NCBI GenBank assembly: GCA_024698885.1
Contig: JAILQQ010000156.1
Coordinates: forward strand, 1-35,489
Source of the DNA: Lachnospiraceae bacterium
GTDB taxonomy: Bacteria; Bacillota; Clostridia; Lachnospirales; Lachnospiraceae
Direction: 5' to 3'
DNA: 35,489 nt
Part shown: positions 12,688-30,555 of the stretch, piece by piece
How the letters are laid out: every line of letters starts with the position of its first letter
Position numbering within the stretch: the first letter of the stretch is position 1
Translations under genes and position numbers: made by a program
Notes under the pieces: generated by a model
Told to the model about the DNA's origin: nothing
Seen by the model: the letters and a program-made list of their open reading frames with translations, nothing else
Databases searched by the model: none

Positions 12688-12725
12688 TAAATCAGTTTTT
12701 ATCAGAGGCTTTCGGCCTCTGAGCT
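12684..12725. terminator. Possible bidirectional terminator between convergent genes
   Basis: CTGATAAA and TTTATCAG can form an 8-bp stem (about 12684-12705), and AGAGGC/GCCTCT around TTTCG forms another inside the last codons of the minus-strand gene. Only short T-runs accompany them, so termination here is plausible but weakly supported. Confidence 0.35.
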
Positions 12726-13820
12726 TAAGATCGATCTTTTGATACAGTCAAGCAGTCTTTCGTTATCCTCCCGCATCATAAAGCAGATCCTGAAAAACAG
12801 GTTGTTTAAGAAGGGGAAGGTGGCGCAGTTTCGTATCATCATTTTTTCCCGGATGCAGTTTTCGAATAAAATATCGGCGTTAAGCCCTTCGCTGTTAATC
12901 TTCACCAGGACAAAGTTGGCCGTCGGCGTAAACACCGTAAGATCCGGTATCTCGCGCAAAGCCTCTGTCATAAAATCCCGTTCCGTCTTTACGAGCTCTC
13001 TTGTTTCCCGGATATAATCCCTGTCGGAAAACATAAGCCTGCCCGCTGCGTCGGCTAAGGAGTTGATGGTCCAGGGGTTTTTGCGGCTGTTGATCAGCTC
13101 GATCAGATCCGTATTGCCCGTGATCGCGTAGCCGAGCCTTAATCCCGGTGCCGCAAAGAATTTGGAGATGCCGCGCAGGATCAGGATGTTGTTGTAGGAG
13201 GCGATTAACGGGATCGCGCTTAAAGCTTCGCAGTTATCGGCGAATTCGATATAGGTCTCATCCACGAGAACAAAAATCCCGTGACGCTTGCAGGTATCTA
13301 AGATCTGGCGCATATCCTCGCGGGTGACCGCGGTAGAAGTCGGATTATTGGGATTGCATATCACAAGAAGCTCGATATCCTCACGCAGCGTATCCTTCAG
13401 GGCGGAAACGTTCAGACGGAAGTCGTCTGCCTCTTCTAACGGAAAATAATGGCTCACGCCGCCGGAGAGGGCGATCTCCCGCTCATATTCGGAATAGGTG
13501 GGGCCTACGATCAATGCTTTTCCGGGTTTTTTGTTCTTGATAAAGAGGGAGATCAGCTCACTGGTGCCGTTGCCGACGATCAGGCTCTCCGGGGCGGCGC
13601 CGCAGTAATCGGAAATAGCCCGTCTGAGAGCCGTATAATCCCTGTCGGGATAGCTTTCGATACAGTCAAGCATCCCGGGGAGCTGCTCCTTGACGCGGCT
13701 GCTGACGCCTAACGGATTGACGTTGGCGGAAAAGCTCAGGATCTCCTCCTTCTTAATATTATAAAGCTGCTCGATCAGTTCAAGATCCGAGCCGTGGAAA
13801 TGATCTGCGTGTTTTATCAT
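12702..13820 (-). CDS. PLP-dependent aminotransferase, CobD/HisC-like
   Basis: 372 residues of fold-type I. The N-terminus (HGSDLELIEQL…LSFSANVNPLG) is the typical opening of L-threonine-O-3-phosphate decarboxylase (CobD), while the rest also resembles histidinol-phosphate aminotransferase. Seen are VGNGTSELI, CNPNNPTS, DETYIEFAD, the PLP lysine in RGISKFFAAPGLRLGY (K220) and a terminal FFRICF arginine. No cobalamin or histidine genes are nearby, so the substrate is open. The start has AGAGGCAG in front, and a TATAAT-containing promoter lies directly upstream, back to back with that of the large cluster. It is the only confident minus-strand gene in the window. Confidence 0.82.
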   Translation of the reverse strand: MIKHADHFHGSDLELIEQLYNIKKEEILSFSANVNPLGVSSRVKEQLPGMLDCIESYPDRDYTALRRAISDYCGAAPESLIVGNGTSELISLFIKNKKPGKALIVGPTYSEYEREIALSGGVSHYFPLEEADDFRLNVSALKDTLREDIELLVICNPNNPTSTAVTREDMRQILDTCKRHGIFVLVDETYIEFADNCEALSAIPLIASYNNILILRGISKFFAAPGLRLGYAITGNTDLIELINSRKNPWTINSLADAAGRLMFSDRDYIRETRELVKTERDFMTEALREIPDLTVFTPTANFVLVKINSEGLNADILFENCIREKMMIRNCATFPFLNNLFFRICFMMREDNERLLDCIKRSILSSEAESL

Positions 13821-13910: not shown

Positions 13911-16900
13911 TTGTCAGATGTTGTGGATAGACTGATCAACGGGTTTTTCGAGTATGAGACCGAAAAGCTTGTTTTTAGTGTACCCAAAATCGAGGAAAAT
14001 CTCAAGCCGAACGATGTGTTTGAGGGCTCTTTTACTCTGACGGCCCAGGGCGGCCAGCCGGTGAACGGCAGCGTCTATTCCTCCTGCATGCGGCTGATCA
14101 GTCTGACGCCGTCCTTCCATGCCGCGCGCTTTGAGGTGAAGTACGGCTTTGATTCCACAGGCCTGGAACCCGGTGCCGTCATCAAGGGGGATATCCAGAT
14201 CGTTTCGGATGCCGGGGAGTACTATATTCCCTTTGTATTTCATATCGTAAGAAATTCCGAGCTTCACGGCAATCAGGAGATAAAGAACCTCTTTCATTTC
14301 TCAAATTCCGCGCAGATGAATTTCCGGGCCGCCGTCCATATTTTCTATTCCGAGAATTTCCTGTCGGTGTTTGAGGGAAATGACCGGGTCCATTACGATA
14401 AATACCGGGGATTTTCCACGAAACGGGGAGATGCGCAGAATGTGGATCTCTTTCTGCGCGCCGTCCGGAAAAAACAGGCTGTCGAGTATAAAACGGATCT
14501 GAGCGTCTATGAATTTTCCAATATCGTATCCGACCTGAAATGTACCCTTGCTGTCAAGAAGTCGACCTGGGGCTATATCGATCTGAGGGTTTCCACCGAC
14601 TGCTCCTTTATCCGCCTGGAAAAGACCGGTATCATCGGGGAGGATTTTCTGGGCAATATCTATAATCTAAGCTTTCTGATCGCGGAGGAAGCCCTGCATG
14701 AGGGAAAAAACTTCGGGACGATCCTCTTAAGCCTGCCGGACGGGCAGGAGCAGCTGCGGGTGGTGATCGTCGCCTCCAAACGGATCGGGAAGGATCCCAA
14801 ACGGATCAGGCGGCGGGAGATGAATGCCCTGACGCATCAGCTGATGCGCCACTATGTGGCTTTTCGGATGAAGCAGATTCAAAAGCTCGTCTGGATCAAG
14901 GAATCCTTAAAGATCGTAGAGCGGATGAACGCGCTGAATGACAAAAATCCTGTTTCCCGGCTTTATCAGGCGCAGCTCTTACTGATGCAGGATCGGACCA
15001 ACGAAGCCAAATGGATCCTTGAGCATATCGAGCGCGATATGCGGATCAAGACCAGAGGAGATGAGATTTATTCATACTTTCTCTATCTGGCGGCGATGTT
15101 TAACAGAGAGGAAGCGTTTATCGACAAGATCACCGCGCAGATCAGGGAAGCCTATGAAAACCACGGAAAAAGCTTTCGGCTGCTGTGGCTTTTACTGTAT
15201 CTGGATGCCGACCTTGCCAAAAGCCCGCCAAAAAGGCTTTCGGCGATCAAGGAGCAGTTTGAGGCCGGCTGCATAAGCCCCCTTCTGTATGTGGAGGCGT
15301 ATAACTGTATCGTGGCAAATCCGTCTTTGATGACGGAGCTGTCGGAATTTGAACTTTCCATCCTTCATTTTGCCCTAAAGAACGGGAAACTCGATCAGGA
15401 GGTAATGGAAAGAGTCCTGATGCTTTCGGAAAAGCTGAAGCATGCGCCGGCACTACTGATCGAGGTCTTCCGGCAGGCGTATCAGCTTGAGGAAAATACG
15501 GAGATCGTGCGGATCCTCTGCGCGCTTCTGATCAAGGACAATGTCACCGACGAGAAGTATTTTGAGTGGTACGCAAGGGGCGTCGAGGCGGATCTGAAGA
15601 TCACAAGGCTTTATGAATACTATATGTTTTCGGTGCCGTTTGACCACAGGATCGTTATCCCAAAGACCGTGATCCTGTATTTCAGCCTGAGCAGTGATCT
15701 GAGCTATGAAAGGACCGCATTTCTGTACGCCAATCTGATCAGGCACCGGGGCCGTCAGCATGAGTTATATGAATCGATGCTCGATAAAATGCGCCAGTTT
15801 GCTTCCGAGCAGATCGAGCTTGAGAATATCAACCGGAATCTTGCGATGATCTATAAGCATCTGATGGTCGTGCAGATGATAACGCCGAAGTTAGCAGGAC
15901 ATTTCCTGCGGATCCTGTTTTCGTACGAGCTTGCGGTTTCCGATCCGCGCTTTACCCGGGTGGTGATCATCCAGGCGGAGCTTAAGGGGGAGCAGTCTTA
16001 TCCGATCGAGGACGGATATGCCTATCCTGTGATCTACTCCCGGAATGTGACGGTCTTTTTGGAGGACGCGAAGGGAAGACGGACGTTAGAGGAATCCGCC
16101 AGGCTCATCCGGGTGCTTGACGATACACTGTATCTGGAGGAAGTCAGAAAGTATGTGACGGATCTGGAAGGATCGCAGAGTGAACCTTCCTTACAGGATC
16201 TCTCCGGGAAAACCGCAAAACCGCGGACGAAGGCCGGGAATGCCGGCTTCCATCTCTATATCTGCACGGTCCGCAACCGCTATGTTTACGTGGACGCCGA
16301 CAACGTGGACGACTGCAGACAGTTAGTGGAATCAGAGGATATCATTGATGCCTATAAGGCGGATATCCGGATCGGATTGATGCAGTACTATTACGATAAC
16401 GGGGAATACGCTGCGCTCGATGAATATCTGCTTCGGATCGACGCGAAAAAACTGCGGGCCAGAGACCGGGTGGATTATATCGATATGCTGGTGCGGCGCG
16501 GCATGTACGAACGGGCCTATGAGACGATCACGATCTATGGCGCGGAGGAGCTGCCGGCTAAGATCTGCGTGCGCATCTGTTCGCAGATGATCGCGGCGCA
16601 TGATGATATCGAGGACCCGATGCTCGTCAAGTTCGCGTATTTTGCGTTCTTAAACGGCAAATATGACCTGCTGACCCTGCAATATCTTGTGCAGAATTTC
16701 AAGGGCCTGACCAAGGAGCTTCGGAATCTCTGGAAGGCGGCAAGGCGTTTCGAGGTCGAATGCGATACGCTGGTAGAAGAGCTTCTGATCCAGATGATGT
16801 ATACCGGGACCATGATCGGCGATAAGGAGGAGCTGTTTGAGGCTTATGTGAAGAGAGGCTCCGGAAGCCGCCTGGAGCTTGCGTTTCTGTCCTATGAGGC

Positions 16901-17549
16901 CTATGAGTATTTCGCGAAGGAGAGACTGCTGCCGGAGAGCATTTTCCGGCACATGCTGAAAAACCACGATCAGGGCGAGGAGATTAATGACGCCTGCAAG
17001 CTGGCGCTGCTTAAGCATTTCGCGGAAGAGGATGCGTCGATGACCGTGCGGATCAGCGAGGTGCTGTCGGAATTCCTGATCGATTTTCTGCACCGGAATA
17101 TCTACTATAATTTCTTTAAGGCTTACAAGAGTATTCTGCCGGAGCTTTCCTCCTACGAGGATAAGACCGTCATCGAATACCGTACGGATCCTTCCCACAG
17201 AGTCTTCCTGCATTATCTGATCGCGGATAAACGGTCGGAGAACGAAAGATATCTGTCGGAGGAAATGAAATGTCTTTTCGGCGGTGTTTTCTCCAGAGAG
17301 TTCATTCTCTTCTTCGGGGATACGCTGCAGTATTATATCATGGAAGAGGTGGACGGAGAGGAAAAGCTGACCTTCAGCGACTCCGTGGAGGTATCCGAAA
17401 CGATCTCCGGGGACGATTCCTCCCGCTATCATATCCTGAATGATATGGTGGTGGCGCGGAATCTGCAGGATGAGGGGACGCTTGTCCACCTGATGACGGA
17501 ATACGCGAAAAAAGACTATTATACCGAAAAAGGCTTTACGATCATCTGA
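13911..17549 (+). CDS. Giant uncharacterised protein, DUF5717-like (beta domains plus alpha solenoid)
   Basis: A 1212-residue soluble protein with no signal peptide or membrane span. The first ~330 residues are beta-rich, with two immunoglobulin-like repeats (each with a surface strand, a Gly-rich turn and a closing FVFHIV or RVVIVAS strand), recalling ASH/MSP-type adaptor folds. From about 340 to 1080 it is almost wholly helical with TPR-like spacing (for example NPVSRLYQAQLLLMQDRTNEAKWILEHI), i.e. a long solenoid. The C-terminal ~100 residues form a smaller mixed domain. I recall this type as DUF5717 of Lachnospiraceae. The start is a TTG at 13911 behind GGGAGAAGGTGGG; upstream in-frame ATGs would place the N-terminus across the promoter. 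It heads a four-gene operon. Scaffold role is inference. Confidence 0.75.
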   Translation: MSDVVDRLINGFFEYETEKLVFSVPKIEENLKPNDVFEGSFTLTAQGGQPVNGSVYSSCMRLISLTPSFHAARFEVKYGFDSTGLEPGAVIKGDIQIVSDAGEYYIPFVFHIVRNSELHGNQEIKNLFHFSNSAQMNFRAAVHIFYSENFLSVFEGNDRVHYDKYRGFSTKRGDAQNVDLFLRAVRKKQAVEYKTDLSVYEFSNIVSDLKCTLAVKKSTWGYIDLRVSTDCSFIRLEKTGIIGEDFLGNIYNLSFLIAEEALHEGKNFGTILLSLPDGQEQLRVVIVASKRIGKDPKRIRRREMNALTHQLMRHYVAFRMKQIQKLVWIKESLKIVERMNALNDKNPVSRLYQAQLLLMQDRTNEAKWILEHIERDMRIKTRGDEIYSYFLYLAAMFNREEAFIDKITAQIREAYENHGKSFRLLWLLLYLDADLAKSPPKRLSAIKEQFEAGCISPLLYVEAYNCIVANPSLMTELSEFELSILHFALKNGKLDQEVMERVLMLSEKLKHAPALLIEVFRQAYQLEENTEIVRILCALLIKDNVTDEKYFEWYARGVEADLKITRLYEYYMFSVPFDHRIVIPKTVILYFSLSSDLSYERTAFLYANLIRHRGRQHELYESMLDKMRQFASEQIELENINRNLAMIYKHLMVVQMITPKLAGHFLRILFSYELAVSDPRFTRVVIIQAELKGEQSYPIEDGYAYPVIYSRNVTVFLEDAKGRRTLEESARLIRVLDDTLYLEEVRKYVTDLEGSQSEPSLQDLSGKTAKPRTKAGNAGFHLYICTVRNRYVYVDADNVDDCRQLVESEDIIDAYKADIRIGLMQYYYDNGEYAALDEYLLRIDAKKLRARDRVDYIDMLVRRGMYERAYETITIYGAEELPAKICVRICSQMIAAHDDIEDPMLVKFAYFAFLNGKYDLLTLQYLVQNFKGLTKELRNLWKAARRFEVECDTLVEELLIQMMYTGTMIGDKEELFEAYVKRGSGSRLELAFLSYEAYEYFAKERLLPESIFRHMLKNHDQGEEINDACKLALLKHFAEEDASMTVRISEVLSEFLIDFLHRNIYYNFFKAYKSILPELSSYEDKTVIEYRTDPSHRVFLHYLIADKRSENERYLSEEMKCLFGGVFSREFILFFGDTLQYYIMEEVDGEEKLTFSDSVEVSETISGDDSSRYHILNDMVVARNLQDEGTLVHLMTEYAKKDYYTEKGFTII

Positions 17550-17563
17550 AAGAGGAAACAACA

Positions 17564-18847
17564 TTGAACGAGGCACTGTATGTGGTGGGCTTTGATCTGA
17601 ATGATTCGATCTCACAGATCAGCTACGTGGAATTAAATGAAAATACGCCAAAGACCTTAGCAAAGGACGGGGAGGAGCAGAAGCTCGGCATTCCGACCGT
17701 GCTGTGCAAGCGTAATGGCGTAGGACAGTGGTATTACGGAAACGAAGCTGTGAATATAGCCGGGCGGGGGGACGGTACCATTGTGACAAAGCTTTTGGGC
17801 GTTGCCAGGGCGGGCGGAAAATACGAGATCGAGGGAGAGGCTTATGATGCCGCGGATCTTCTGGTGCTTTTTGTCAGAAGAACCCTGACAGAGCTTTCGG
17901 GACTGACCTCCCCGGAGCAGGTGGCGTCTCTCGTATTTACCGTGGACGAGCTCGATAAGACGACGCTGAAGCTGTTACAGAAGATCGTGGAGACGATCCC
18001 GGTGGCGGAAGAAAGGATCCACTTCCAGACCTATGCCGAAAGCTCCTACTATTATATCCTGCACCAGCCGCAGGAGCTCTGGGAAAGAGACGTTGTGATA
18101 TTTGACTACAGCGGAAAGGGGCTGCACGGCTTTCAGTTCTGGGTGAACCGGAGGACTACGCCGAATGTCGGCTTCGTGGATGAATTTGAGATCGAAAATG
18201 TCAGGATGCCCGATATTATGCTGGGCGATCATCCCTCGCCGGAGCAGTACGCGGATTTTGACGAGGATATCCTGGTCAAGATGCATGAGCATTTTAACGG
18301 AAAATCCATCGGAACGGTATATCTTTTGGGCAACGGCTTTGAAGAGGACTGGTGCGTCAAGACCATCCGGTATCTCTGTATGGGAAGAAGAGTCTTTCAG
18401 GGGCGGAATCTCTATTCCAAGGGCGCCTGCTTTTTCGCCAGGGACAAGATCGTGCCGTCCAAGCTGATCGAGGATTATATCTTCCTTGGCAGGGATAAGC
18501 TGAAATTCAACCTCGGCATGTATATGCGGTATATGGGAAAAGAGGAATACATCGCCATCGCGGACGGCGGAGAAAACTGGTTTGACTGCGATACAACGAT
18601 CGATATGCTGCTTGACGGCACCAAAGAGATCCGGCTTCTGATCACGCCGCTTGACGGAAAGGATCCGGCGGAACTCGTGATCGAGCTGGAGGGACTGCCT
18701 GAACGACCGAATAAGGCTTCCCGGATCCGTCTGACGGTAACCTTCCTTTCGGAAACCTCGTTAACCGCCACGGCGATCGATCTGGGCTTCGGAGAGATAT
18801 TCCCCTCGAGCGGTCTGAAATGGGAAAAAAGTCTGAAAATAGGGTAA
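17564..18847 (+). CDS. Hsp70/actin-fold protein, DUF5716-like
   Basis: 427 residues. The order of motifs is that of the Hsp70/actin ATPase fold: a phosphate-1-like VGFDLNDS (8-15, where Hsp70 has DLGTT), a phosphate-2-like VIFDYSGKG (D181), an adenosine-type LLGNGFEED (254-262) and the NLYSKGACFFA helix that in Hsp70 closes the nucleotide cleft. The last ~100 residues are a beta-sandwich (IRLLITPLDG…VTFLSET…FGEIF) in the position of the Hsp70 substrate-binding domain. The changed phosphate-1 loop leaves ATPase activity uncertain. I recall this family as DUF5716. The start is TTG, behind AAAGAGGA, 15 bases after the preceding stop, with no usable ATG nearby. Binding of nucleotide and of the partner proteins is inferred. 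Confidence 0.75.
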   Translation: MNEALYVVGFDLNDSISQISYVELNENTPKTLAKDGEEQKLGIPTVLCKRNGVGQWYYGNEAVNIAGRGDGTIVTKLLGVARAGGKYEIEGEAYDAADLLVLFVRRTLTELSGLTSPEQVASLVFTVDELDKTTLKLLQKIVETIPVAEERIHFQTYAESSYYYILHQPQELWERDVVIFDYSGKGLHGFQFWVNRRTTPNVGFVDEFEIENVRMPDIMLGDHPSPEQYADFDEDILVKMHEHFNGKSIGTVYLLGNGFEEDWCVKTIRYLCMGRRVFQGRNLYSKGACFFARDKIVPSKLIEDYIFLGRDKLKFNLGMYMRYMGKEEYIAIADGGENWFDCDTTIDMLLDGTKEIRLLITPLDGKDPAELVIELEGLPERPNKASRIRLTVTFLSETSLTATAIDLGFGEIFPSSGLKWEKSLKIG

Positions 18848-18851
18848 GGTT

Positions 18852-19688
18852 ATGTCGGATCTGATCTTATGTCACAGCGCGTTAGCGGAAAATCCATATT
18901 ATTTTGTCACCCTCGGTGTGAAGATCTACTCGATCGAGGAGCTTTGCTTTGTGTTAAAGGAAAAAGCGGGGCTTTTAGACGAGGATGTGAAGGATGAGGG
19001 ACTGTGCGATTTCCTGATCGGAGAAGCGGGCATGCCGAGGCTCGGGGAGCGTTTGAAGGAAATGCTCAGAGAGGGCTGCAGCGTCGGCGAATTCGTGACA
19101 ACGATCTTTGAGGCCTCCTGCTATCTGAATGAGGAGGAATTGCAGGAGCTGACAAAGACCCTTGTCGATAATGCCGGTCTTGACCGCAACAGAAAGCATA
19201 AGCTCCGGGGGGACGGTATGCTGCGCAGCGGGAAATACGCCCAGGCACTGGATGAATACCGGTTTGTCCTGGGGATCATGGACAGATCCGTGGATCGCGA
19301 GCTTTACGCGGCTGTCCTGCATAACATGGGGACCGCTTATGCCAGAATGTTTCTGTTAAAAGAGGCCTCGGAATGCTTCTACGATTCCTATGAGATATCG
19401 GGTGAGAAGGAAAGCGTGCTGCAGTTTCTGCTCGCGTCCCACGCGATAAACAGTGCGGAACAGTATGACAGGCTTTTAAAGCGGTACGGCTTTAATGAGG
19501 AGCTTAAGCAGGAGGCGGAAAGGCGCTTTGCGCTCCTGAGAGAGCCGGATGAGGACTCGCCGCAGAAGGAGACCCTTGACAGGATCGGCGAATTAAAGGA
19601 ATCCGGTCAGGTGGCCGCCTTTTACCGGATGCTTGAGGATACCATCGACGAGTGGAAGGATGCGTACCGCGCCAGTATGGGAGCATAG
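18852..19688 (+). CDS. Uncharacterised TPR-like helical protein of the cluster
   Basis: 278 residues, soluble and almost entirely helical. The N-terminus (YYFVTLGVKIYSIEELCFVL) is a distinctive conserved-looking segment, followed by acidic helices and then tetratricopeptide-like repeats at about 115-200 (SGKYAQALDEYRFVL; LHNMGTAYARMFLLKEASECFYDSYEI). The last 60 residues hold a charged helix rich in Glu and Lys. It starts four bases after the Hsp70-like gene's stop, with GGGTAAGGTT as ribosome site, and two bases separate it from the next gene, so translation is coupled. TPR domains bind partner proteins, and here the obvious candidates are the neighbouring gene products. Function unknown. 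Confidence 0.75.
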   Translation: MSDLILCHSALAENPYYFVTLGVKIYSIEELCFVLKEKAGLLDEDVKDEGLCDFLIGEAGMPRLGERLKEMLREGCSVGEFVTTIFEASCYLNEEELQELTKTLVDNAGLDRNRKHKLRGDGMLRSGKYAQALDEYRFVLGIMDRSVDRELYAAVLHNMGTAYARMFLLKEASECFYDSYEISGEKESVLQFLLASHAINSAEQYDRLLKRYGFNEELKQEAERRFALLREPDEDSPQKETLDRIGELKESGQVAAFYRMLEDTIDEWKDAYRASMGA

Positions 19689-19690
19689 AG

Positions 19691-20911
19691 ATGAAGCTGT
19701 TTGACTGGATCAAAAAGACCATCGGCTTCGAGGATGAAGACGATGATGATTTTTTCCTGAGCGAACTGAAGGTCGGCGAGGAATCCGAATCGATCACGGA
19801 TGTGCTGAATTCCGCCACCATACGGCGGGAGAACCTGAATGTGGCGGATTACCGGGAAAGAGAGCGCTTTGTCCGGGATCACTGTGAGCAGATGACACAG
19901 TCCTCGCAGGACGTGGAGGAGCAGAAGGCCGAATACTATGTGGTGCTTGAACACCTGACGGATATCGAGACCCTTGCCGCGCTTTCCCACCGTGAAATGA
20001 AATCCCTGCAGGCAAAGGCGGGGAAGATCATTGCGATCGAGGAATCGGAGAAGAACTACAAGCGCCCGGTCAGCAAAATATCCGAAACGCAGTACCGGGA
20101 AATGGCGCGCCTCGAACGGGAGGGGACCCTGCCGGGCGCCCTGGACCAGCTGACGGAAAGCGAAGAACGTCAGATGAAGATCAAGCGGGACATGAACCTT
20201 CTGGAAGGAGAGAAGGGGGCACTGGCCTATCAGCGGAAAAAGGAAAGAGGCCGGGCCGTTAACGCGAAGGCGCTGTGCCTGCTTCTGATCGTGGGGAGCC
20301 TTTTGATCCTCGCGCTTTTACTCTTTGTCAGCAACAGCCTGAAGATGGATGTCAGAATGGGGATCTTTATTATCGTCGGTATCCTGGCGCTTGGGCTGAC
20401 GGCGGTTTTCGTCAATTTCACCGGGGCGCAGTCAGAGCAGGTAAGGCTTGAGAAAAAGCTGAACCGCGCGATCACGCTGCAGAATAAGGCAAAGTTAAAA
20501 TATGTCAACGCGACGAATCTGATCGATTATTATTATTCCAAATATCATGTCAACAGCTCCTATGAGCTCCGCTATATGTGGGATAAATATCTGGAGGAAA
20601 AGAAGGCCAGGAACCATTCGGAGGATGTGGCAAGGCAGATCGACGAAGCCAGACAGGCGCTGACGGGAGCCCTGAAATCGCAGCATATCAAGGATCCGTC
20701 TGTCTTTGTCTATCAGCCCGGCATCCTTGTGAACGAAGAGGAGATGACGGAGCTTCGGCACAGCCTGATCATCCAGAGACAACGCCTGAAAAAGGGCATG
20801 GATTTCAATGCCTATCATCTGGAGCAGTCAAAGAAGGAGATCGAAAAGCTGGTGGCGGATTTCCCGCAGTACGCCAGAGAGATCCTCGGTATCGTGAGCC
20901 AGTACGAATAA
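19691..20911 (+). CDS. Uncharacterised membrane coiled-coil protein of the cluster
   Basis: 406 residues. The N-terminus carries an acidic run (FEDEDDDDFF), followed by a long helical, Glu/Lys/Arg-rich region likely to be coiled coil (about 50-190). Two adjacent membrane helices (about 193-215 and 222-242, separated by SLKMDVR) form a hairpin, and a second coiled-coil region (about 250-406) follows. Both long arms therefore lie on the same side, presumably the cytoplasm. ATG 19691 is preceded by GGGAGCATAGAG and lies two bases after the previous stop; a farther upstream in-frame ATG overlaps that gene and was rejected. As the only membrane protein in the cluster it is the likely anchor for the other three. 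No known family assigned. Confidence 0.75.
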   Translation: MKLFDWIKKTIGFEDEDDDDFFLSELKVGEESESITDVLNSATIRRENLNVADYRERERFVRDHCEQMTQSSQDVEEQKAEYYVVLEHLTDIETLAALSHREMKSLQAKAGKIIAIEESEKNYKRPVSKISETQYREMARLEREGTLPGALDQLTESEERQMKIKRDMNLLEGEKGALAYQRKKERGRAVNAKALCLLLIVGSLLILALLLFVSNSLKMDVRMGIFIIVGILALGLTAVFVNFTGAQSEQVRLEKKLNRAITLQNKAKLKYVNATNLIDYYYSKYHVNSSYELRYMWDKYLEEKKARNHSEDVARQIDEARQALTGALKSQHIKDPSVFVYQPGILVNEEEMTELRHSLIIQRQRLKKGMDFNAYHLEQSKKEIEKLVADFPQYAREILGIVSQYE

Positions 20912-20919
20912 GGGCGCAA

Positions 20920-20948
20920 TTGACTTATCCCCGGAAACATGGTAGTAT
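20920..20948 (+). promoter_or_regulatory. Candidate promoter for the ABC transporter/pur genes
   Basis: TTGACT (20920-20925) and TAGTAT (20943-20948) with a 17-base spacer; TATAAC three bases further on is an alternative -10 with a 20-base spacer. It lies in the 86-base gap after the cluster and about 50 bases before the lipoprotein start. Confidence 0.45.
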
Positions 20949-20997
20949 AACGGGTGGTTTTCGGTTTTATAGGTTTATCGTAAAAGAGGAGGAAAGC

Positions 20998-21858
20998 ATG
21001 AAAAAGAGGATTGTAAGTTTGATCAGTGCTGCCATGCTGCTTGGCATGACCGTTCTTTGCGGATGCGCTGTGCCTGTAGCACAGGCCCCTGCGGCAGGGA
21101 ATGCCGAAAGCGCGCAGACAGAGGAGGCGGCGCCTTCTGCGGGAACCGCGGATGACGGTGTATTTGTGGTAGGTTTTGACGCCAGCTTCCCGCCCTACGG
21201 ATACCAGGATGACAATGGCGAGTATGTGGGCTTTGACCTGGATCTGGCGACAGAGGTGGCAAAACGCCAGGGCTGGGAGATCAAGTATCAGCCTATCGAC
21301 TGGGATTCCAAGGATATGGAGCTCTCAAGCGGCACCATTGACTGTATCTGGAATGGTTTCACGATGAGCGAGGAGCGGCTTGACAAGTACGAGTGGTCTG
21401 AACCCTATGTGGATAACAGCCAGGTTTTCGTCGTGGCAACGGATGCGGGGATCAATTCCCAGGCCGATCTGGCAGGAAAGATCGTAACGGTCCAGACGGA
21501 CTCTTCGGCGCTTGAAGCGCTGGAGTCAGACGACTGCAAGGAGCTGACGGATTCCTTCGCGGATCTGGTGGTGGTTCCCGATTACAATACAGCGTTCTTA
21601 AATCTGGAATCCGGCGCGGTAGAAGCGGTGGCTATGGATATCGGCGTGGCAAATTATCAGATCGCCTCCCGCGGGGACGGCTATATGATCCTGCCGGATG
21701 AGCTGGTCTCCGAGCAGTACGGTGTGGGCTTCTTAAAGGGGAACACGGCGCTGCGGGATACGGTTCAGAAGACGCTTGATGAGATGGCAGAGGACGGCAC
21801 CTTTATGGAGATCGCCGAGAAGTGGGAGCTTCAGGACGCCGTGATCCTCGGGAAATAA
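20998..21858 (+). CDS. Amino-acid ABC transporter substrate-binding lipoprotein
   Basis: 286 residues. A signal peptide ends in the lipobox VLCGC with the lipidated Cys at 23, then a short Ala/Glu linker and a type-3 solute-binding domain of the polar amino-acid family. Seen are VVGFDASFPPYGYQDD, YVGFDLDLATEVAKRQGW, DCIWNGFTMSEERL and GVGFLKGNTALRD. It delivers its ligand from outside the cell to the permease encoded next. ATG 20998 sits behind AAGAGGAGGAAAG; the 26 codons upstream are not part of the signal peptide. Ligand (Gln, Arg, cystine or other) cannot be told from sequence. Confidence 0.92.
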   Translation: MKKRIVSLISAAMLLGMTVLCGCAVPVAQAPAAGNAESAQTEEAAPSAGTADDGVFVVGFDASFPPYGYQDDNGEYVGFDLDLATEVAKRQGWEIKYQPIDWDSKDMELSSGTIDCIWNGFTMSEERLDKYEWSEPYVDNSQVFVVATDAGINSQADLAGKIVTVQTDSSALEALESDDCKELTDSFADLVVVPDYNTAFLNLESGAVEAVAMDIGVANYQIASRGDGYMILPDELVSEQYGVGFLKGNTALRDTVQKTLDEMAEDGTFMEIAEKWELQDAVILGK

Positions 21859-21889
21859 AACAGGTTTTTCCAGAAACAGGAGATAGAGA

Positions 21890-22540
21890 ATGAGTGTCGG
21901 TAAAATTATTCTGCAGCTGCTGGACGGTTCGTTAGTAAGCATAGTGATCTTTTTGCTGACACTCCTTTTTTCTCTGCCTTTAGGGCTTTTAGTGGCGCTT
22001 GGGCGGCTTTCGAAAGACCGGATCCTTCGTTCGCTGATCAAGGTCTATATATCGATCATGCGGGGGACGCCGTTAATGCTGCAGCTTATGGTGGTATTTT
22101 TCGGGCCCTATTATTTATTTGGCATTAAGATCAAAACCTCGTACCGGTTCGCGGCCGTGATCATCGGCTTTGTTCTGAACTATGCCGCTTATTTCGCGGA
22201 GATCTACCGGGGCGGCATCGAAGCGGTACCAAAGGGCCAGTACGAGGCAGCCAGGCTCCTCGGCTATACGCCGGCCCAGACCTTTTTACGGATCATTCTG
22301 CCGCAGGTCATCAAGACGATCCTGCCCTCCGTGACAAACGAGGTGATCACGTTAGTCAAGGACACCTCCCTTGCCTTTGTGATCGCGGTTTCCGAAATGT
22401 TTACCGCGGCCAAGGCGATCGCGGCAGCGCAGACTACCATGATGCCTTTTATCATTGCGGGGATCTTTTACTATGTATTTAACGCGGTGGTGGCATTTGC
22501 CATGGCCCGTATTGAAAAAGCGATGGACTATTATGAGTGA
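21890..22540 (+). CDS. Amino-acid ABC transporter permease
   Basis: 216 residues with about five membrane helices, the size usual for His/Glu/Gln/Arg transporter permeases. Seen is the EAA loop that docks the ATPase, [20 protein letters not shown], preceded by the typical [32 protein letters not shown] near residue 60 is the hallmark segment of the family. A single permease gene suggests a homodimeric channel. The ATG is preceded by CAGGAGATAGAGA, 31 bases after the binding-protein gene, and its end overlaps the start of the ATPase gene by eight bases, so expression is coupled. Confidence 0.93.
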
Positions 22541-23300
22541 CTGCCTGGTAGAAATCAAAAACCTGAAGAAGAGCTTTGGCGATCTGACTGTTTTAAAGGA
22601 CGTTTCTCTTTCTGTGGAGAAGGGCGAGGTGGTATCGGTCATCGGACCCTCCGGCTCCGGAAAATCGACGCTTCTTCGCTGCGCAACGCTGCTTGAGACG
22701 ATGGACAGCGGAGAGCTCAGCTATATGGGAGAAAAAGCCTGCTATACCGATGCCCAGGGGCGGTGCGTCTACGCTTCCAAAGAGGAGCTTAAGCATATCA
22801 GAAAAAAGTTCGGGCTGGTCTTTCAGAATTTTAACCTTTTTCCGCATTTTTCGGTTTTAAAAAATGTGACGGATGCGGCGATCGTTGCCCATGGCGTGCC
22901 AAAGGAGGAGGCTTTCGCAAACGCAAGGAGACTTTTGACGCAGTTTGGGCTGGAGGGGAAGGAGGACAGCTATCCCTGCCAGCTGTCCGGCGGACAGCAG
23001 CAGCGGGTATCGATTGTCAGGGCTCTTGCGTTAAATCCCCAGGTGATCTATTTTGATGAACCGACTTCCGCCCTTGACCCCGAGTTGACAGGAGAGGTGC
23101 TCAGGGTGATTAAGAGCCTGGCCGAAGCGCATATGACCATGATCATCGTGACGCATGAAATGAGCTTTGCCAAAGAGGTGTCCGACCGGGTGATCTTTAT
23201 GGAAAACGGCCTGATCCAGATGCAGGGAACGCCGGAGCAGGTATTTACCTCGGAGAACGAACGGGTAAAGAGCTTTATCGGAAAGCTCGGTAATATATAA
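22533..23300 (+). CDS. Amino-acid ABC transporter ATP-binding protein
   Basis: 255 residues. Walker [10 protein letters not shown] (38-46), Q-loop [15 protein letters not shown], signature LSGGQQQRV, Walker [16 protein letters not shown] and the switch histidine in IIVTHEM are all intact, so it should power uptake together with the upstream permease and lipoprotein. The ATG at 22533 lies inside the end of the permease gene (ATGAGTGA arrangement); a longer in-frame start within the permease gene was rejected. purC begins 16 bases after its stop, without a visible terminator, so transporter and purine genes may be on one transcript. Confidence 0.94.
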
Positions 23301-23316
23301 GGAGCAGATCATAACC

Positions 23317-24024
23317 ATGGAAAAAAGAGAACAGCTGTATGAGGGGAAGGCCAAAAAGGTCTTCGCAACGGACGATCCCGATATCGTGATCGTGGATTAC
23401 AAGGATGACGCGACCGCGTTTAACGGGGAAAAGAAGGGGACGATCGTCGGCAAGGGCGTCGTGAACAACCGCATGACGAACCATGTTTTCAGGCTGCTGG
23501 AAAAGGAAGGCGTACCGACCCATTATATCGAGGAGCTGTCCGACCGGGAAACAGCTGTCAAAAAGGTTCAGATCGTGCCGCTTGAGGTGATCATCCGCAA
23601 TATTGCCGCGGGCAGCTTCTCAAAGCGTCTGGGCGTTCCGGAGGGGAAAAAATTCCGGCAGCCAACGATCGAATTCAGCTATAAAAATGATGAACTGGGA
23701 GATCCCCTGATCAACAGCTATTTTGCGTTAGCGTTAGAGTTAGCCACGGAAGAGGAGATCGAGACGATCAAACGCTATGCCTTTCGGGTGAATGAGGTGC
23801 TGAAAGCCTATTTCCTGCAGGCAGACATAGAACTGGTCGACTTCAAGATAGAATTCGGGCGATTTAAGGGACAGATCATTCTGGCAGATGAGATATCCCC
23901 CGATACCTGCCGCCTCTGGGACGTTCATACCCATGAAAAGCTGGATAAGGACCGTTTCCGCAGAGACCTCGGAAACGTGGAGGAGGCCTATCAGGAGGTA
24001 TTTAAGAGGCTCGGACTGGATTAA
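23317..24024 (+). CDS. purC: Phosphoribosylaminoimidazole-succinocarboxamide synthase
   Basis: Joins aspartate to CAIR with ATP to make SAICAR in purine synthesis. 235 residues, the standard bacterial length. Seen are [28 protein letters not shown], the segment [26 protein letters not shown] and the nucleotide/product site [18 protein letters not shown] lies about 11 bases before the ATG. purB, which acts on the product of this enzyme, follows after a 63-base gap that holds a copy of the A-type hairpin repeat. Confidence 0.96.
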
Positions 24025-24046
24025 AGAGGTGACAGTTCCTAAAAAG

Positions 24047-24074
24047 GCGCACGATTTGCAGAACAAATCGGCGC
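24047..24074 (+). repeat. Module A hairpin in front of purB
   Basis: GCGC, a bulged A, then CGATTTG pairs with CAAATCG-GCGC (24064-24074) around the loop CAGAA. This is the same 12-bp bulged stem as the A module in the array at 33.2-33.4 kb. The hairpin ends 13 bases before the purB ATG, and the bases after it (GGGGAG) form the ribosome binding site, so the stem could affect purB translation. Confidence 0.7.
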
Positions 24075-24087
24075 GGGGAGATGAAGT

Positions 24088-25542
24088 ATGGAAAGAACCG
24101 ACCGATACAGCAGTCCCCTGTCTGAGCGTTATGCCAGCCGGGAGATGCAGTTTATTTTTTCACAGGACATGAAGTTTCGTACCTGGCGTCGCCTTTGGAT
24201 CGCGCTTGCCGAGACAGAAATGGCTCTGGGCCTTTCGGAAAACGGCAGGCCCGTGATCACGCAGGAGATGATCGATGAACTGAAGGCGCACGCGGAGGAT
24301 ATCAATTACGAAGCGGCCAGAGAGAGAGAAAAAGAGGTGCGCCATGACGTCATGAGCCATGTTTACGCGTACGGCCTGCAGTGCCCTCTGGCAAAGGGGA
24401 TCATCCATCTTGGCGCTACCTCTTGCTATGTGGGAGATAATACGGATATTATTATCATGACGGAGGCACTTAAGCTGATCCGGAAAAAGCTCCTAAACGT
24501 CATTGACAGGCTTGCGGCCTTCGCGGATCATAATAAGGATCTTCCGACGCTCGCGTTTACGCATTTTCAGCCGGCACAGCCGACGACAGTGGGAAAGCGG
24601 GCCACGTTATGGATCAATGATTTTCTGACGGATCTCGAGGAGCTTGACTTCGTCCTTGGGTCCATGAAGCTGCTTGGCTCCAAGGGGACGACCGGAACAC
24701 AGGCAAGCTTTTTGGAGCTTTTTGACAATGACGTGGAAACGGTGGAGAAGATAGATCCGATGATCGCGGAAAAAATGGGTTTTGCCGCCTGCTGTCCCGT
24801 CAGCGGCCAGACCTATTCGCGAAAGACAGATGCCAGGGTGGCAAATGTTCTTTCCGGCATTGCGCAGAGCGCGCATAAGTTTTCGAATGATATCCGTTTA
24901 CTGCAGCATCTGAAGGAGGTGGAGGAGCCCTTTGAAAAAAATCAGATCGGCTCTTCGGCGATGGCGTATAAGAGAAATCCGATGCGGAGTGAACGGATCG
25001 CGTCCCTGAGCCGCTACATTATGATCGATGCCTTAAACCCTGCCATGACGGCGGCAACCCAGTGGTTTGAGCGGACGCTTGACGATTCCGCCAATAAGCG
25101 CCTCAGCATTCCCGAGGGATTTTTAGCCTGTGACGGGGTTCTGGATCTTTGCATGAACGTGGCAGACGGTCTGGTCGTGAACAAAAAGGTCATTCAAAAG
25201 CACCTGATGAGCGAGCTGCCGTTCATGGCTACCGAGAATATCCTGATGGATGCCGTCAAAAACGGCGGAGACAGACAGGAGCTGCATGAAAAGATCCGGG
25301 AGCATTCGATGACGGCTGCGATGCATGTCAAGCAGGACGGACGGGAGAACGATCTGCTTACGCTTCTTTCGGAGGATCCGGCCTTTGGCAGGACAAAGGA
25401 GGAGTTAGCGGCACTGCTTAAGCCGGAGCTCTATACCGGCATGGCGGCGCATCAGACAGAGCGGTATCTGAAGGAAACGGTCGCGCCGGTGCTTGCGGAG
25501 AACAGGGAAGCACTGGGACTTACCGCAGAGATACATGTATAA
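24088..25542 (+). CDS. purB: Adenylosuccinate lyase
   Basis: Splits fumarate from SAICAR and from adenylosuccinate, serving both the main purine route and AMP formation. 484 residues. Seen are RYASREMQFIFS at the N-terminus, HVYAYG-type catalytic histidine region (DVMSHVYAYG), HLGATSCYVGDNTD, THFQPAQPTTVGKR, and the fumarase-superfamily signature SSAMAYKRNPMRSE with the catalytic serine loop. The length and sequence type resemble the longer eukaryote-like PurB common in Clostridia. ATG 24088 is set by GGGGAGATGAAGT directly downstream of the repeat hairpin. purA follows after 44 bases. Confidence 0.95.
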   Translation: MERTDRYSSPLSERYASREMQFIFSQDMKFRTWRRLWIALAETEMALGLSENGRPVITQEMIDELKAHAEDINYEAAREREKEVRHDVMSHVYAYGLQCPLAKGIIHLGATSCYVGDNTDIIIMTEALKLIRKKLLNVIDRLAAFADHNKDLPTLAFTHFQPAQPTTVGKRATLWINDFLTDLEELDFVLGSMKLLGSKGTTGTQASFLELFDNDVETVEKIDPMIAEKMGFAACCPVSGQTYSRKTDARVANVLSGIAQSAHKFSNDIRLLQHLKEVEEPFEKNQIGSSAMAYKRNPMRSERIASLSRYIMIDALNPAMTAATQWFERTLDDSANKRLSIPEGFLACDGVLDLCMNVADGLVVNKKVIQKHLMSELPFMATENILMDAVKNGGDRQELHEKIREHSMTAAMHVKQDGRENDLLTLLSEDPAFGRTKEELAALLKPELYTGMAAHQTERYLKETVAPVLAENREALGLTAEIHV

Positions 25543-25586
25543 TAAACAGGGAACAGATACACTGAAGTGCAGAAGGGAGAAAAAGT

Positions 25587-26864
25587 ATGGTAAAAGCAGT
25601 TGTAGGGGCGAACTGGGGTGATGAGGGAAAAGGAAAGATCACGGATATGCTGGCCCAGGACGCCGATATTATCGTCAGATTCCAGGGTGGTGCCAATGCG
25701 GGCCATACGATTGTAAATCACTATGGCAAATTTGCACTGCACACACTTCCTTCCGGCGTGTTTTACAGTCATACAACGAGTATCATCGGAAACGGGGTGG
25801 CGTTAAATATCCCGGTACTGATGAAGGAGATCAAGGGCATCGAGGAACGGGGGGTTCCCTCGCCGAAGCTTCTGATCTCGGACCGGGCCCAGATCGTGAT
25901 GCCCTATCATGTGGCGCTTGATGCCTATGAGGAGGAGCGCCTGAAGGGACATTCCTTCGGCTCGACGAAATCGGGGATCGCGCCGTTTTATTCGGATAAA
26001 TACGCAAAGATCGGTTTTCAGGTCAGTGAGCTTTTTATGGACGAGGAAGCGCTTCGGGAAAAGCTGCATAATGTCTGCGAGATCAAGAATGCGCTGCTTC
26101 AAGACCTGTATCATAAGCCCCTGCTTGATGAGGACGCGCTCTTTGAGGAGCTTAAGAGCTATAAGACCATGGTGGAGCCCTACATCTGCGATACTTCGGC
26201 CTACCTGCACGAGGCGCTTAAAAACGGAAAGAATATCCTGCTTGAGGGGCAGCTTGGCTCTCTGAAGGATCCGGATCACGGCATCTATCCTATGGTAACC
26301 TCCAGCTCGACCTTGGCGGCCTACGGTGCTATCGGCGCGGGTATTCCGCCCTATGAGATCAGACAGATCATTACGGTCTGCAAGGCCTATTCCTCCGCGG
26401 TGGGCGCCGGCGCCTTCGTTTCGGAGCTCTTCGGGGAAGAGGCGGATGCGCTGCGGGAGCATGGCGGCGACGGCGGAGAATACGGCGCTACGACGGGACG
26501 GCCGAGAAGAGTCGGATGGTTTGACTGTGTCGCGTCCCGCTACGGACTCAGGATGCAGGGGACCACGGATGTGGCCTTTACGGTACTGGACGCGCTCGGG
26601 TATCTCGACGAGATCTCCGTCTGCACGGACTATGAAATAGACGGGAAGGAAACGTCGGAATTCCCGGTGACCTGGCAGCTTGAGAGGGCTAAGCCGGTGC
26701 TTGAAACGTTACCGGGCTGGAAATGCGATATACGGGGGATCAGGCGGTATGAGGAGCTGCCGGAGAACTGCCGGGCGTATGTGGAATTTATTGAGGAGAG
26801 GCTCGGCTACCCGATCAAAATGATCAGTAACGGTCCCGGACGGGATGATATCATTTACCGGTAA
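25587..26864 (+). CDS. purA: Adenylosuccinate synthetase
   Basis: Uses GTP to couple IMP with aspartate, giving adenylosuccinate, the substrate of the PurB enzyme encoded upstream. 425 residues, the standard length. Seen are the P-loop GANWGDEGKGKI with the catalytic Asp, GGANAGHTIVN with the catalytic His, GSTKSGIAPFYSDK, EGQLGSLKDPDHG, TTGRPRRVGWFD and the GTP-binding end SNGPGRDD. The ATG follows AGAAGGGAG. With purC and purB it forms a compact set that covers SAICAR formation and AMP synthesis; the other purine genes are not in the window. Confidence 0.96.
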   Translation: MVKAVVGANWGDEGKGKITDMLAQDADIIVRFQGGANAGHTIVNHYGKFALHTLPSGVFYSHTTSIIGNGVALNIPVLMKEIKGIEERGVPSPKLLISDRAQIVMPYHVALDAYEEERLKGHSFGSTKSGIAPFYSDKYAKIGFQVSELFMDEEALREKLHNVCEIKNALLQDLYHKPLLDEDALFEELKSYKTMVEPYICDTSAYLHEALKNGKNILLEGQLGSLKDPDHGIYPMVTSSSTLAAYGAIGAGIPPYEIRQIITVCKAYSSAVGAGAFVSELFGEEADALREHGGDGGEYGATTGRPRRVGWFDCVASRYGLRMQGTTDVAFTVLDALGYLDEISVCTDYEIDGKETSEFPVTWQLERAKPVLETLPGWKCDIRGIRRYEELPENCRAYVEFIEERLGYPIKMISNGPGRDDIIYR

Positions 26865-27684: not shown

Positions 27685-28692
27685 ATGACAATCCGGGAAA
27701 GAGTTGAACAGAGAGAAAAGGAATATCTGAGCCCGTACGCGACGTTAAGCATGCGGTCAAAGGGGCGGGATGTGCCTGAGGCACAGTGCGATATCCGTCC
27801 TGTCTTTCAGCGCGACCGGGATCGTATCCTGCATGCCAAATCCTTCCGGCGCCTGAAGGATAAAACACAGGTATTTCTGACCCCGGAGGGGGATCATTAC
27901 CGGACCAGGCTGACGCATACGCTGGAGGTTTCCCAGAACGCGCGGACCATCGCGAAAGCCCTGCGCCTGAATGAGGATCTGACAGAGGCAATCGCCCTTG
28001 GCCATGATCTCGGCCATACGCCGTTCGGTCATGCCGGAGAGCGGGCCCTTGACCGCTGCTGTGCGGAAGGCTTCCGCCATAATGAGCAGAGCGTGCGGGT
28101 CGTCGAGGTGCTGGAAAAGGAGGGCAGAGGCTTAAACCTCACCTGGGAGGTAAGGGACGGGATCCTGAACCATCAGACCCGTTCGATGCCCGCTACGCCC
28201 GAGGGAAAGATCGTTCGTCTGGCGGATAAGATCGCCTATATCCACCATGATATAGATGACGCGATCCGGGCCGGCGTTTTAAGGGAGGAAGATATTCCGG
28301 TACAGATCAGAAAGACCCTCGGAATGACGACAACGAAGCGTCTGAACACACTGATACATGATGTGATCACAAACAGCGGCGACAGTGAGGATATCCGGAT
28401 GTCCGGAGAGATCTTCGATGCCTTTGTGGAGCTCCGGAAGTTTATGTTTGATCATGTTTACCTGAATCCTGTGGTGAAGCATGAGGAAAGCAAGGCGGAA
28501 AAACTTGTGGAAAATCTCTACGAATATTTTCTAAGAGAATTCGACCGGATCCCGGAGGAATACCGTTCTCTGACGGAGGAGCAGGGAGCAGGCCGCGACA
28601 GGGTGGTCTGTGATTATGTGTCGTCCATGTCTGACAGATACGCTATTAATACCTTTAACAATATATATCTGCCGAAGAGCTGGTCTCTGTGA
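27685..28692 (+). CDS. dgt: Deoxyguanosinetriphosphate triphosphohydrolase-like HD protein
   Basis: Hydrolyses dNTPs, typically dGTP, to deoxynucleoside and triphosphate. 335 residues, the short form common in Firmicutes. Seen are FRRLKDKTQVF, HTLEVSQNARTIA (first metal His), ALGHDLGHTPFGHAGE (HD pair and helper His), LNHQTRS and RLADKIAYIHHDIDDA (last metal Asp). No clear ribosome site precedes ATG 27685, though it is the first sensible start, giving the typical TIRERVEQRE opening. It leads the operon with dnaG, a common arrangement in Clostridia. Members of the family may prefer other dNTPs, so the substrate is by analogy. Confidence 0.9.
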   Translation: MTIRERVEQREKEYLSPYATLSMRSKGRDVPEAQCDIRPVFQRDRDRILHAKSFRRLKDKTQVFLTPEGDHYRTRLTHTLEVSQNARTIAKALRLNEDLTEAIALGHDLGHTPFGHAGERALDRCCAEGFRHNEQSVRVVEVLEKEGRGLNLTWEVRDGILNHQTRSMPATPEGKIVRLADKIAYIHHDIDDAIRAGVLREEDIPVQIRKTLGMTTTKRLNTLIHDVITNSGDSEDIRMSGEIFDAFVELRKFMFDHVYLNPVVKHEESKAEKLVENLYEYFLREFDRIPEEYRSLTEEQGAGRDRVVCDYVSSMSDRYAINTFNNIYLPKSWSL

Positions 28693-28702
28693 GGATACGA
28701 CC

Positions 28703-30505: not shown

Positions 30506-30514
30506 AAACGGTTG

Positions 30515-30536
30515 GATTTGCGGGCAAATCGGCGCA
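30515..30536 (+). repeat. Module A hairpin in front of rpoD
   Basis: GATTTGC (30515-30521) pairs with GCAAATC (30524-30530) and is followed by GGCGCA, the constant 3' flank of module A. The 5' GCGCA arm is lost. It occupies most of the 50-base gap between dnaG and rpoD, ending just before the AGGAGG ribosome site. Confidence 0.6.
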
Positions 30537-30555
30537 TAGACAGGAGGATGAAAAA

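Follow-up and report, generated by a model that had tools for sequence, protein, structure and literature searches.

A predicted lidless pseudo-Hsp70 in a conserved Lachnospiraceae operon related to a larger multi-Hsp70 operon

Introduction

Lachnospiraceae are a dominant gut family, and nearly all of the members sampled here encode two proteins, DUF5716 and DUF5717, whose Pfam entries are described as of unknown function. The question of what these proteins are is raised by a stretch of 35,489 nucleotides from a Lachnospiraceae bacterium (GenBank assembly GCA_024698885.1, contig JAILQQ010000156.1; referred to at its full length as the window), in which both are encoded within a run of four packed genes at positions 13911-20911. 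An earlier note, made from the sequence of the window, had named genes 1 and 2 as DUF5717 and DUF5716, rightly according to Pfam, and had proposed a membrane-tethered scaffold or chaperone-like machine in which gene 2, with Hsp70-order motifs, serves as a regulatory nucleotide switch. The analysis reported here supports an Hsp70 fold for gene 2, argues against the switch, and relates the genes by sequence to a larger operon, carrying three further Hsp70s, in other families of the order.

The genes and the predicted domains of gene 2 are as follows.

13911-17549, + strand: gene 1, DUF5717 scaffold, 1212 residues, TTG start chosen in the analysis (Pfam PF18984 and PF18983).
17564-18847, + strand: gene 2, DUF5716, 427 residues, TTG start (Pfam DUF5716_C).
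17564-18478, + strand: gene 2, predicted pseudo nucleotide-binding domain of Hsp70, about residues 1-305 (DnaK profile match, model, lost catalytic columns).
18479-18847, + strand: gene 2, predicted beta part of the Hsp70 substrate-binding domain (SBD-beta), about residues 306-427, no lid (weak second profile segment, model strands).
18852-19688, + strand: gene 3, tetratricopeptide repeat (TPR) adaptor, 278 residues, with a conserved non-TPR N-terminal region (TPR_12, consensus, PDB profile search, fusion in locus L208).
19691-20911, + strand: gene 4, coiled-coil-like membrane protein with two predicted spans, 406 residues (hydropathy).

All four open reading frames (ORFs) described earlier are present, separated by 14, 4 and 2 bases; the first gap had been given as 15, the other two correctly. 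The window proteins pass the curated Pfam cut-offs for DUF5717 (gene 1: DUF5717_N, E = 4e-263, and DUF5717, E = 2.9e-94) and DUF5716 (gene 2: DUF5716_C, E = 7.1e-97). Gene 3 matches TPR_12 at E = 7.5e-7 and 29.7 bits, slightly below the cut-off of 30.1, no Pfam family above its cut-off was found for gene 4, and no above-cut-off NCBIfam match was found for any of the four.

Results

The fold of gene 2 was examined by profile and structure searches. When PDB sequences were searched with a profile built from 40 orthologs, the top match was DnaK (2v7y) at E = 6.2e-6, with the main segment in the N-terminal domain and a second, weak one at the corresponding place in SBD-beta. The AlphaFold model (pLDDT 90.8, pTM 0.83, from a 63-row alignment) was compared with the PDB by Foldseek, and 48 of the 50 listed matches carry Hsp70 or Hsp70-complex titles, 2v7y among them (E = 8.7e-18). 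The remaining two are chains from entries on the ciliary central pair whose titles leave the chain unnamed. Entries for the ribosome-associated complex, which contains the non-canonical Hsp70 Ssz1, also appear among the matches (6sr6, 7x3k and 5mb9). The TM-scores are moderate, 0.45-0.59 on the query, as expected for a two-domain protein modelled in one domain arrangement. Both the profile and the predicted model place an actin-type nucleotide-binding domain before SBD-beta, the domain order of Hsp70. The marker columns of SBD-beta are retained (of 120 family sequences, 119 have D and 120 have G), and the helical lid that follows in Hsp70 is missing, the median length after the marker column being 21 residues in the DUF5716 family versus 149 in three DnaKs. 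No PF00012 match was listed for gene 2 by Pfam at E <= 10. An Hsp70 fold made of a nucleotide-binding domain and SBD-beta, without a lid, is well supported by these predictions, and the point that had been set beforehand as a check on the earlier proposal comes out in its favor.

Whether such a protein could cycle on ATP was judged from an alignment of 192 Hsp70-type proteins, in which the mean identity of the family to DnaK is 14% and the columns carry E. coli DnaK numbers. The 120 family sequences (that of the window plus 39 and 80 from two locus sets) include some near-copies, and at least two loci stand in both sets (L040/L101 and L059/L140). K70, E171 and D201 are found in 0/120, T199 in 4/120 and D194 in 71/120. 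In the phosphate-1 loop, which reads FDLNDS in the window and had correctly been described as changed, D8 is kept in 112 sequences, G10 in 57 and T11 in 2; the phosphate-2 glycines are not conserved. As judged from these columns, gene 2 is without the residues needed for ATP hydrolysis.

The regulatory switch envisaged earlier, in which gene 2 would bind ATP or ADP and signal its state via the TPR and membrane partners, draws on what does remain of the site: D8, the first glycine of the adenosine motif (120/120) and the downstream GA pair (120/120). It also counts toward such a switch that Ssz1-like proteins may bind nucleotide but not hydrolyze it. However, the losses at K70, E171, D201, T199 and T11, and in part at G10, speak against it, as does the fact that none of 200 family genomes gave a full-length match to the GrpE-like exchange factor, and we consider the switch unlikely.

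The distribution of the genes was examined in 200 genomes of Lachnospiraceae, where DUF5716_C was found in 195 and DUF5717_N in 196, nearly always as a single match per genome; two genomes (G272 and G334) lack both. Gene order was read from the two locus sets, in both of which gene 2 is present by construction. Genes 1-2-3 follow one another in 78/78 loci of the 80-locus set where all three were found, the other two loci ending at contig ends; this set holds the best 80 of at least 560 loci, and so near relatives. The same order is seen in the 40-locus set, with an extra ORF between genes 1 and 2 in L076; in L060, gene 2 was dropped by ORF pruning, although a Pfam match there had brought the locus in. 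Genes 1-2-3 are conserved together and in order far beyond chance, and this second check set for the earlier proposal also comes out in its favor.

In a sample of the class, DUF5716_C was found in 9 of 245 genomes, all nine of them Lachnospiraceae, and no listed Lachnospiraceae genome was without it; in a sample of the phylum, the four of 249 genomes with DUF5717_N were likewise all Lachnospiraceae. A system confined to this family was nevertheless rejected, since a search at the level of the order found a larger form. There, DUF5716_C was found in 59 of 116 genomes, comprising all 11 listed Lachnospiraceae and 48 of 105 others, where the matches are mostly weaker and often fall on two neighboring ORFs. 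Among these 105 genomes, DUF5716_C was found in 48, a GrpE-like protein (E < 1e-30) in 50 and DUF5717_N in 51, with all three in 46 and any of them in 52. The larger operon, read at 19 loci (L165-L183), runs DUF5717 - Hsp70-A - GrpE-like - B - Hsp70-C - Hsp70-D - TPR gene, the DUF5717 part being one gene or split into two, and carries gene 4 at its end in three loci (L168, L169 and L171). Its Hsp70-type and GrpE-like members are as follows.

Hsp70-A: 554-581 residues, no lid.
Helical GrpE-like protein: 563-644 residues in 18 loci, 279 in L168, GrpE at the C-terminus.
B, the DUF5716 counterpart: 457-542 residues, no lid.
Hsp70-C: 539-551 residues, no lid.
Hsp70-D: median 692 residues, with a von Willebrand factor A (vWA) domain in the lid position.

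The order A - GrpE-like - B - C - D holds in 16/19 loci, the set being broken up in L172, L173 and L181, and A, B and C end 16-36 residues past the SBD-beta marker column. Pfam on L166 recognizes A, C and D as Hsp70s (E = 5.1e-76, 7.4e-63 and 4.5e-96), with VWA in D as well (1.9e-10), and GrpE, over its cut-off, at the C-terminus of the helical protein (3e-13); B matches both DUF5716_C (1.5e-26) and HSP70 (1.4e-17). K70, E171, D194, T199 and D201 are all present in A (16/16 rows), C (18/18) and D (15/16), the missing D row being that of L168, where D is split over two frames and its N-terminal part lies in the other frame. In B the corresponding counts are K70 0/19, E171 2/19 and T199 0/19, with D194 in 18/19, and mean pairwise identity is 33% for B versus 67-69% for A, C and D in the same loci. 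The chaperone-like context suggested earlier proves stronger than could be seen from the window, since the operon of relatives also encodes a GrpE-like protein and three intact Hsp70s. Since the GrpE-like gene adjoins B in 19/19 loci, B may have been the partner of the exchange factor in the full machine. In L168, the TPR gene (L168:5205-6231) and Hsp70-D (L168:6340-8384) are each split over two reading frames, through either true decay or an assembly error.

The two forms were linked by profile-profile comparison, in which the family DUF5716 matches B with probability 100 (E = 4.6e-50), Hsp70-C with 99.2 (6e-20), DnaK with 54 (1e-4) and A and D with 3-5. In a maximum-likelihood tree of 93 rows, a branch with support 100 has all 21 family sequences on the same side, next to B of L168. 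Hsp70-A, Hsp70-C, Hsp70-D and DnaK form one group each and B two, the exact placement of B being unsure in a tree made by a quick method with several long branches flagged. L168, with the full gene set and a B that matches DUF5716_C at 3.4e-74, looks intermediate. A valyl-tRNA synthetase gene (by eye) directly follows two larger operons, L168 and L171; in 10 of 41 reduced loci one is found downstream, at varying distance, inside the stretch that was fetched, the proteins being 71-76% identical; this common neighbor suggests descent in place. No full-length match to the GrpE-like protein was found in the 200 family genomes, where 23 of the 25 weak matches fall on its GrpE end; in the class sample, 50 genomes were matched, all at that end only and in frames of 170-335 residues. 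Taken together, the comparisons of sequence indicate that the operon of the window is homologous to the larger operon of other families in the order. Since B is degenerate even in operons that retain A, C and D, the form in the window is most simply read as a reduced one.

The genome of the window has ordinary dnaK, dnaJ and grpE genes and one further Hsp70, on contig C174. The latter was considered as a lost part of the machine and rejected, as it scores best with DnaK (97 bits, versus 61 for D, 58 for A, 48 for C and 21 for B). This DnaK-like gene, of 535 residues, is part of a separate chaperone-kinase cluster (L202:7151-14368), in which genes that by eye resemble a protein kinase, a PP2C-like phosphatase and a vWA protein lie on the same strand.

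Gene 1 was modelled on an ortholog, that of L080, which is 66% identical to the window protein. The AlphaFold model (pLDDT 85.8, pTM 0.57) predicts two N-terminal immunoglobulin (Ig)-like domains, a long helical solenoid with a small inner beta domain, and a C-terminal beta domain, much as the earlier description of a beta-plus-solenoid protein had it. Foldseek matched the model at low TM-scores to TPR scaffolds such as Ski, Naa15 and Ctr9 and to chains of the ciliary central apparatus, which by our reading are matches to ASH/HYDIN-type Ig domains; the PDB profile search found no solved relative at E <= 1. Nine loci (L043, L044, L048, L051, L067, L068, L071, L075 and L079) have a shorter gene 1 of 1090-1108 residues and all lack gene 4 there, a link that is one-way, as a long gene 1 also occurs in other loci without gene 4. 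In a further family genome (G440), the DUF5717 gene at L210:4387-6948, which comes after a gene read by eye as metK, matches model positions 297-1177 only, so that the N-terminal Ig part is missing; gene 2 of this locus is the longest end branch in the tree.

A large scaffold of this kind is one ground for supposing that the operon does no chaperoning at all, the Hsp70 fold of gene 2 being a structural brick in a constitutive assembly of genes 1-3, with or without gene 4, for instance in the envelope or cytoskeleton. The near-universal presence of the genes in the family sample as nearly always single matches, the loss of catalytic and peptide-arch residues, and the much faster change of B than of A, C and D would all fit such a passive scaffold. 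They are set against the retention of the SBD-beta markers and the relation to an operon rich in ATPase-type Hsp70s with an exchange factor, and we hold the passive scaffold to be a possible, though somewhat doubtful, explanation.

The PDB profile search matched gene 3 to TPR proteins, which together with TPR_12 bears out its earlier description as TPR-like; the ortholog consensus adds a conserved non-TPR N-terminal region (VYSxEELCY). In L208 (genome G310), genes 2 and 3 form one ORF of 709 residues, in which the gene 2 profile covers residues 4-419 and that of gene 3 residues 434-708. This single case suggests that genes 2 and 3 act together.

Gene 4 has strong hydrophobic segments at residues 195-213 and 223-241, consistent with the two spans noted earlier, and the PDB profile search gave weak coiled-coil matches but no convincing solved relative. 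It is patchy, being present in 93/200 family genomes at E <= 0.001 (three of these matches weak) and in 18/40 loci of the 40-locus set. The proposed membrane tether would hold where gene 4 exists and falls away elsewhere.

The patchiness of gene 4 could also point to a conflict or stress effector, in which gene 4 would be a two-transmembrane (2TM) pore-type effector under a chaperone-like assembly, akin to the GAP1-N2 systems, whose HSP70, GrpE and fibronectin type III (FNIII)-TPR proteins the part list resembles (excerpts of PMC7159879). Gene 4 weakly matches the PADLOC '2TM' effector model (E = 2.2e-4), and Hsp70-C and Hsp70-D match that of the candidate system PDC-M61B (8.7e-11 and 4.4e-7). 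The latter are possibly generic Hsp70 matches and were read as such, as were two weak TPR-type matches for the L166 TPR protein. Genes 1-3 of the window have no PADLOC match at E <= 0.001, genes 1 and 2 are near-universal in the family, unlike patchy defense islands, and no GTPase domain was found in the four window proteins or in ten operon proteins of L166 and L168, the flanking genes not having been scanned systematically. An effector of this type appears very improbable.

The operon is adjoined by a divergent aminotransferase gene (HisC-like by eye; window positions 12702-13820) and followed, at 20920-26864, by an amino-acid ABC transporter (by eye) and then purC, purB and purA (Pfam). Across 41 loci, the aminotransferase recurs as a neighbor in 25 and purB in 19. 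Farther downstream (27685-31707), an HD phosphohydrolase-type gene, the dnaG primase gene and a sigma-70 gene in a row make up an ordinary macromolecular-synthesis cluster.

Discussion

We regard it as about evenly balanced whether the core of this operon is an ATP-independent, Ssz1-like holding or docking complex left from a larger multi-Hsp70 machine. In the full machine, the pseudo-Hsp70 B would be a non-cycling subunit that holds or positions clients or partner Hsp70s, as Ssz1 does. Lachnospiraceae would have dropped the ATP-driven parts and retained the passive core, in which the pseudo-Hsp70 encoded by gene 2 would be bound by the Ig/TPR scaffold of gene 1 and the TPR adaptor of gene 3, with gene 4, in genomes that have it, bringing the complex to the membrane. 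Gene 2 may then bind a client or partner stably without ATP cycling, or pass a client to the ordinary DnaK. For the order as a whole, a wider proposal, to which we lean slightly less than halfway, is that one operon encodes a relay in which three lidless ATPase-type Hsp70s (one with vWA in place of the lid) work together with an Ig/TPR scaffold, a long GrpE-like factor and an obligate pseudo-Hsp70, and that Lachnospiraceae turned it into an ATP-free pseudo-chaperone complex fixed in their cell biology.

Several observations weigh against a holding complex derived in this way. No J-domain, and so no partner such as Ssz1 has in Zuo1, was found among the operon proteins scanned (those of the window, L166 and L168). 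Of the DnaK residues of the peptide site, the hydrophobic pocket positions are retained in SBD-beta of gene 2, possibly as mere core residues, and those of the arch are lost, the M404 column holding G in 103/120 and the A429 column E or D in 87/120, and therefore binding may differ from that of DnaK. The E171 column is the least certain of those scored, since it is followed within a few residues by a well-conserved Glu (E159). The fusion of genes 2 and 3 is known from one genome, being the only DUF5716 frame of more than 530 residues among the matches listed. That Lachnospiraceae lack Hsp70-A, -C and -D is judged from the GrpE-like marker, from the loci examined and from the genome of the window, no direct search for these proteins having been made across the family. 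Finally, a CIRCE element was not found at 60 loci, where the best site agreed at 14 of 18 positions and equaled the best of 20 shuffled loci, a weak negative in view of mixed controls (17/18, 11 and 11 for DnaK loci, and 10 for the hrcA/grpE piece of the window genome).

No paper on DUF5716, DUF5717 or the operon was found among those listed from the open-licence PMC literature, and the larger multi-Hsp70 machine is apparently undescribed. With the present analysis, two families of unknown function that are found in nearly all sampled Lachnospiraceae gain a likely origin and a role that can be tested, and gene 2 gains a fold. The larger operon, with its three lidless Hsp70s and dedicated GrpE-like protein, offers a test of whether several Hsp70s fit one dedicated machine.

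Among known proteins, gene 2 resembles DnaK (PF00012) in its domain order, the predicted fold of both domains, the adenosine-motif glycine and the GA pair, and in the SBD-beta signature, which in the gene 2 comparison reads LxGLPxRP...DxGFG against LTGIPPAP...DLGTG. It differs in lacking the lid and the catalytic Lys, Glu, Thr and Asp. As to operons, what is described here is an Hsp70 system, and the nearest published theme is that of the GAP1-N2 GTPase-centric systems. In the excerpts of PMC7159879, these combine HSP70 and GrpE with an FNIII protein fused to DnaJ or TPR, are often membrane-linked, and in a subset include a second Hsp70-type protein. HSP70 and GrpE genes stand together here too, in the larger operon and not in the window. 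However, the defining GTPase was not found, an Ig-type DUF5717 takes the place of FNIII, and the genes are near-universal in one family. In Myxococcus xanthus, the Hsp70 paralog DnaK2 shares a bicistronic operon with a GrpE homolog that lies upstream of it (PMC11019930), an account that, in its excerpts, mentions neither a pseudo-Hsp70 nor a scaffold.

The closest parallel in role may be Ssz1 of the fungal ribosome-associated complex, a non-canonical Hsp70 that acts with a partner and an active Hsp70 (PMC10191838 belongs to this context, and the title of PMC7083937 speaks of a relay directing nascent chains to the Hsp70 Ssb), entries for this complex being among the fold matches of gene 2. The partners differ, the J-protein Zuo1 there and here the Ig/TPR scaffold and TPR adaptor, with the GrpE-like protein in the larger form. 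If the reading of gene 2 as part of a retained holding complex is true, it would be a bacterial pseudo-Hsp70 that has outlived its co-evolved ATPases, comparable to fungal Ssz1.

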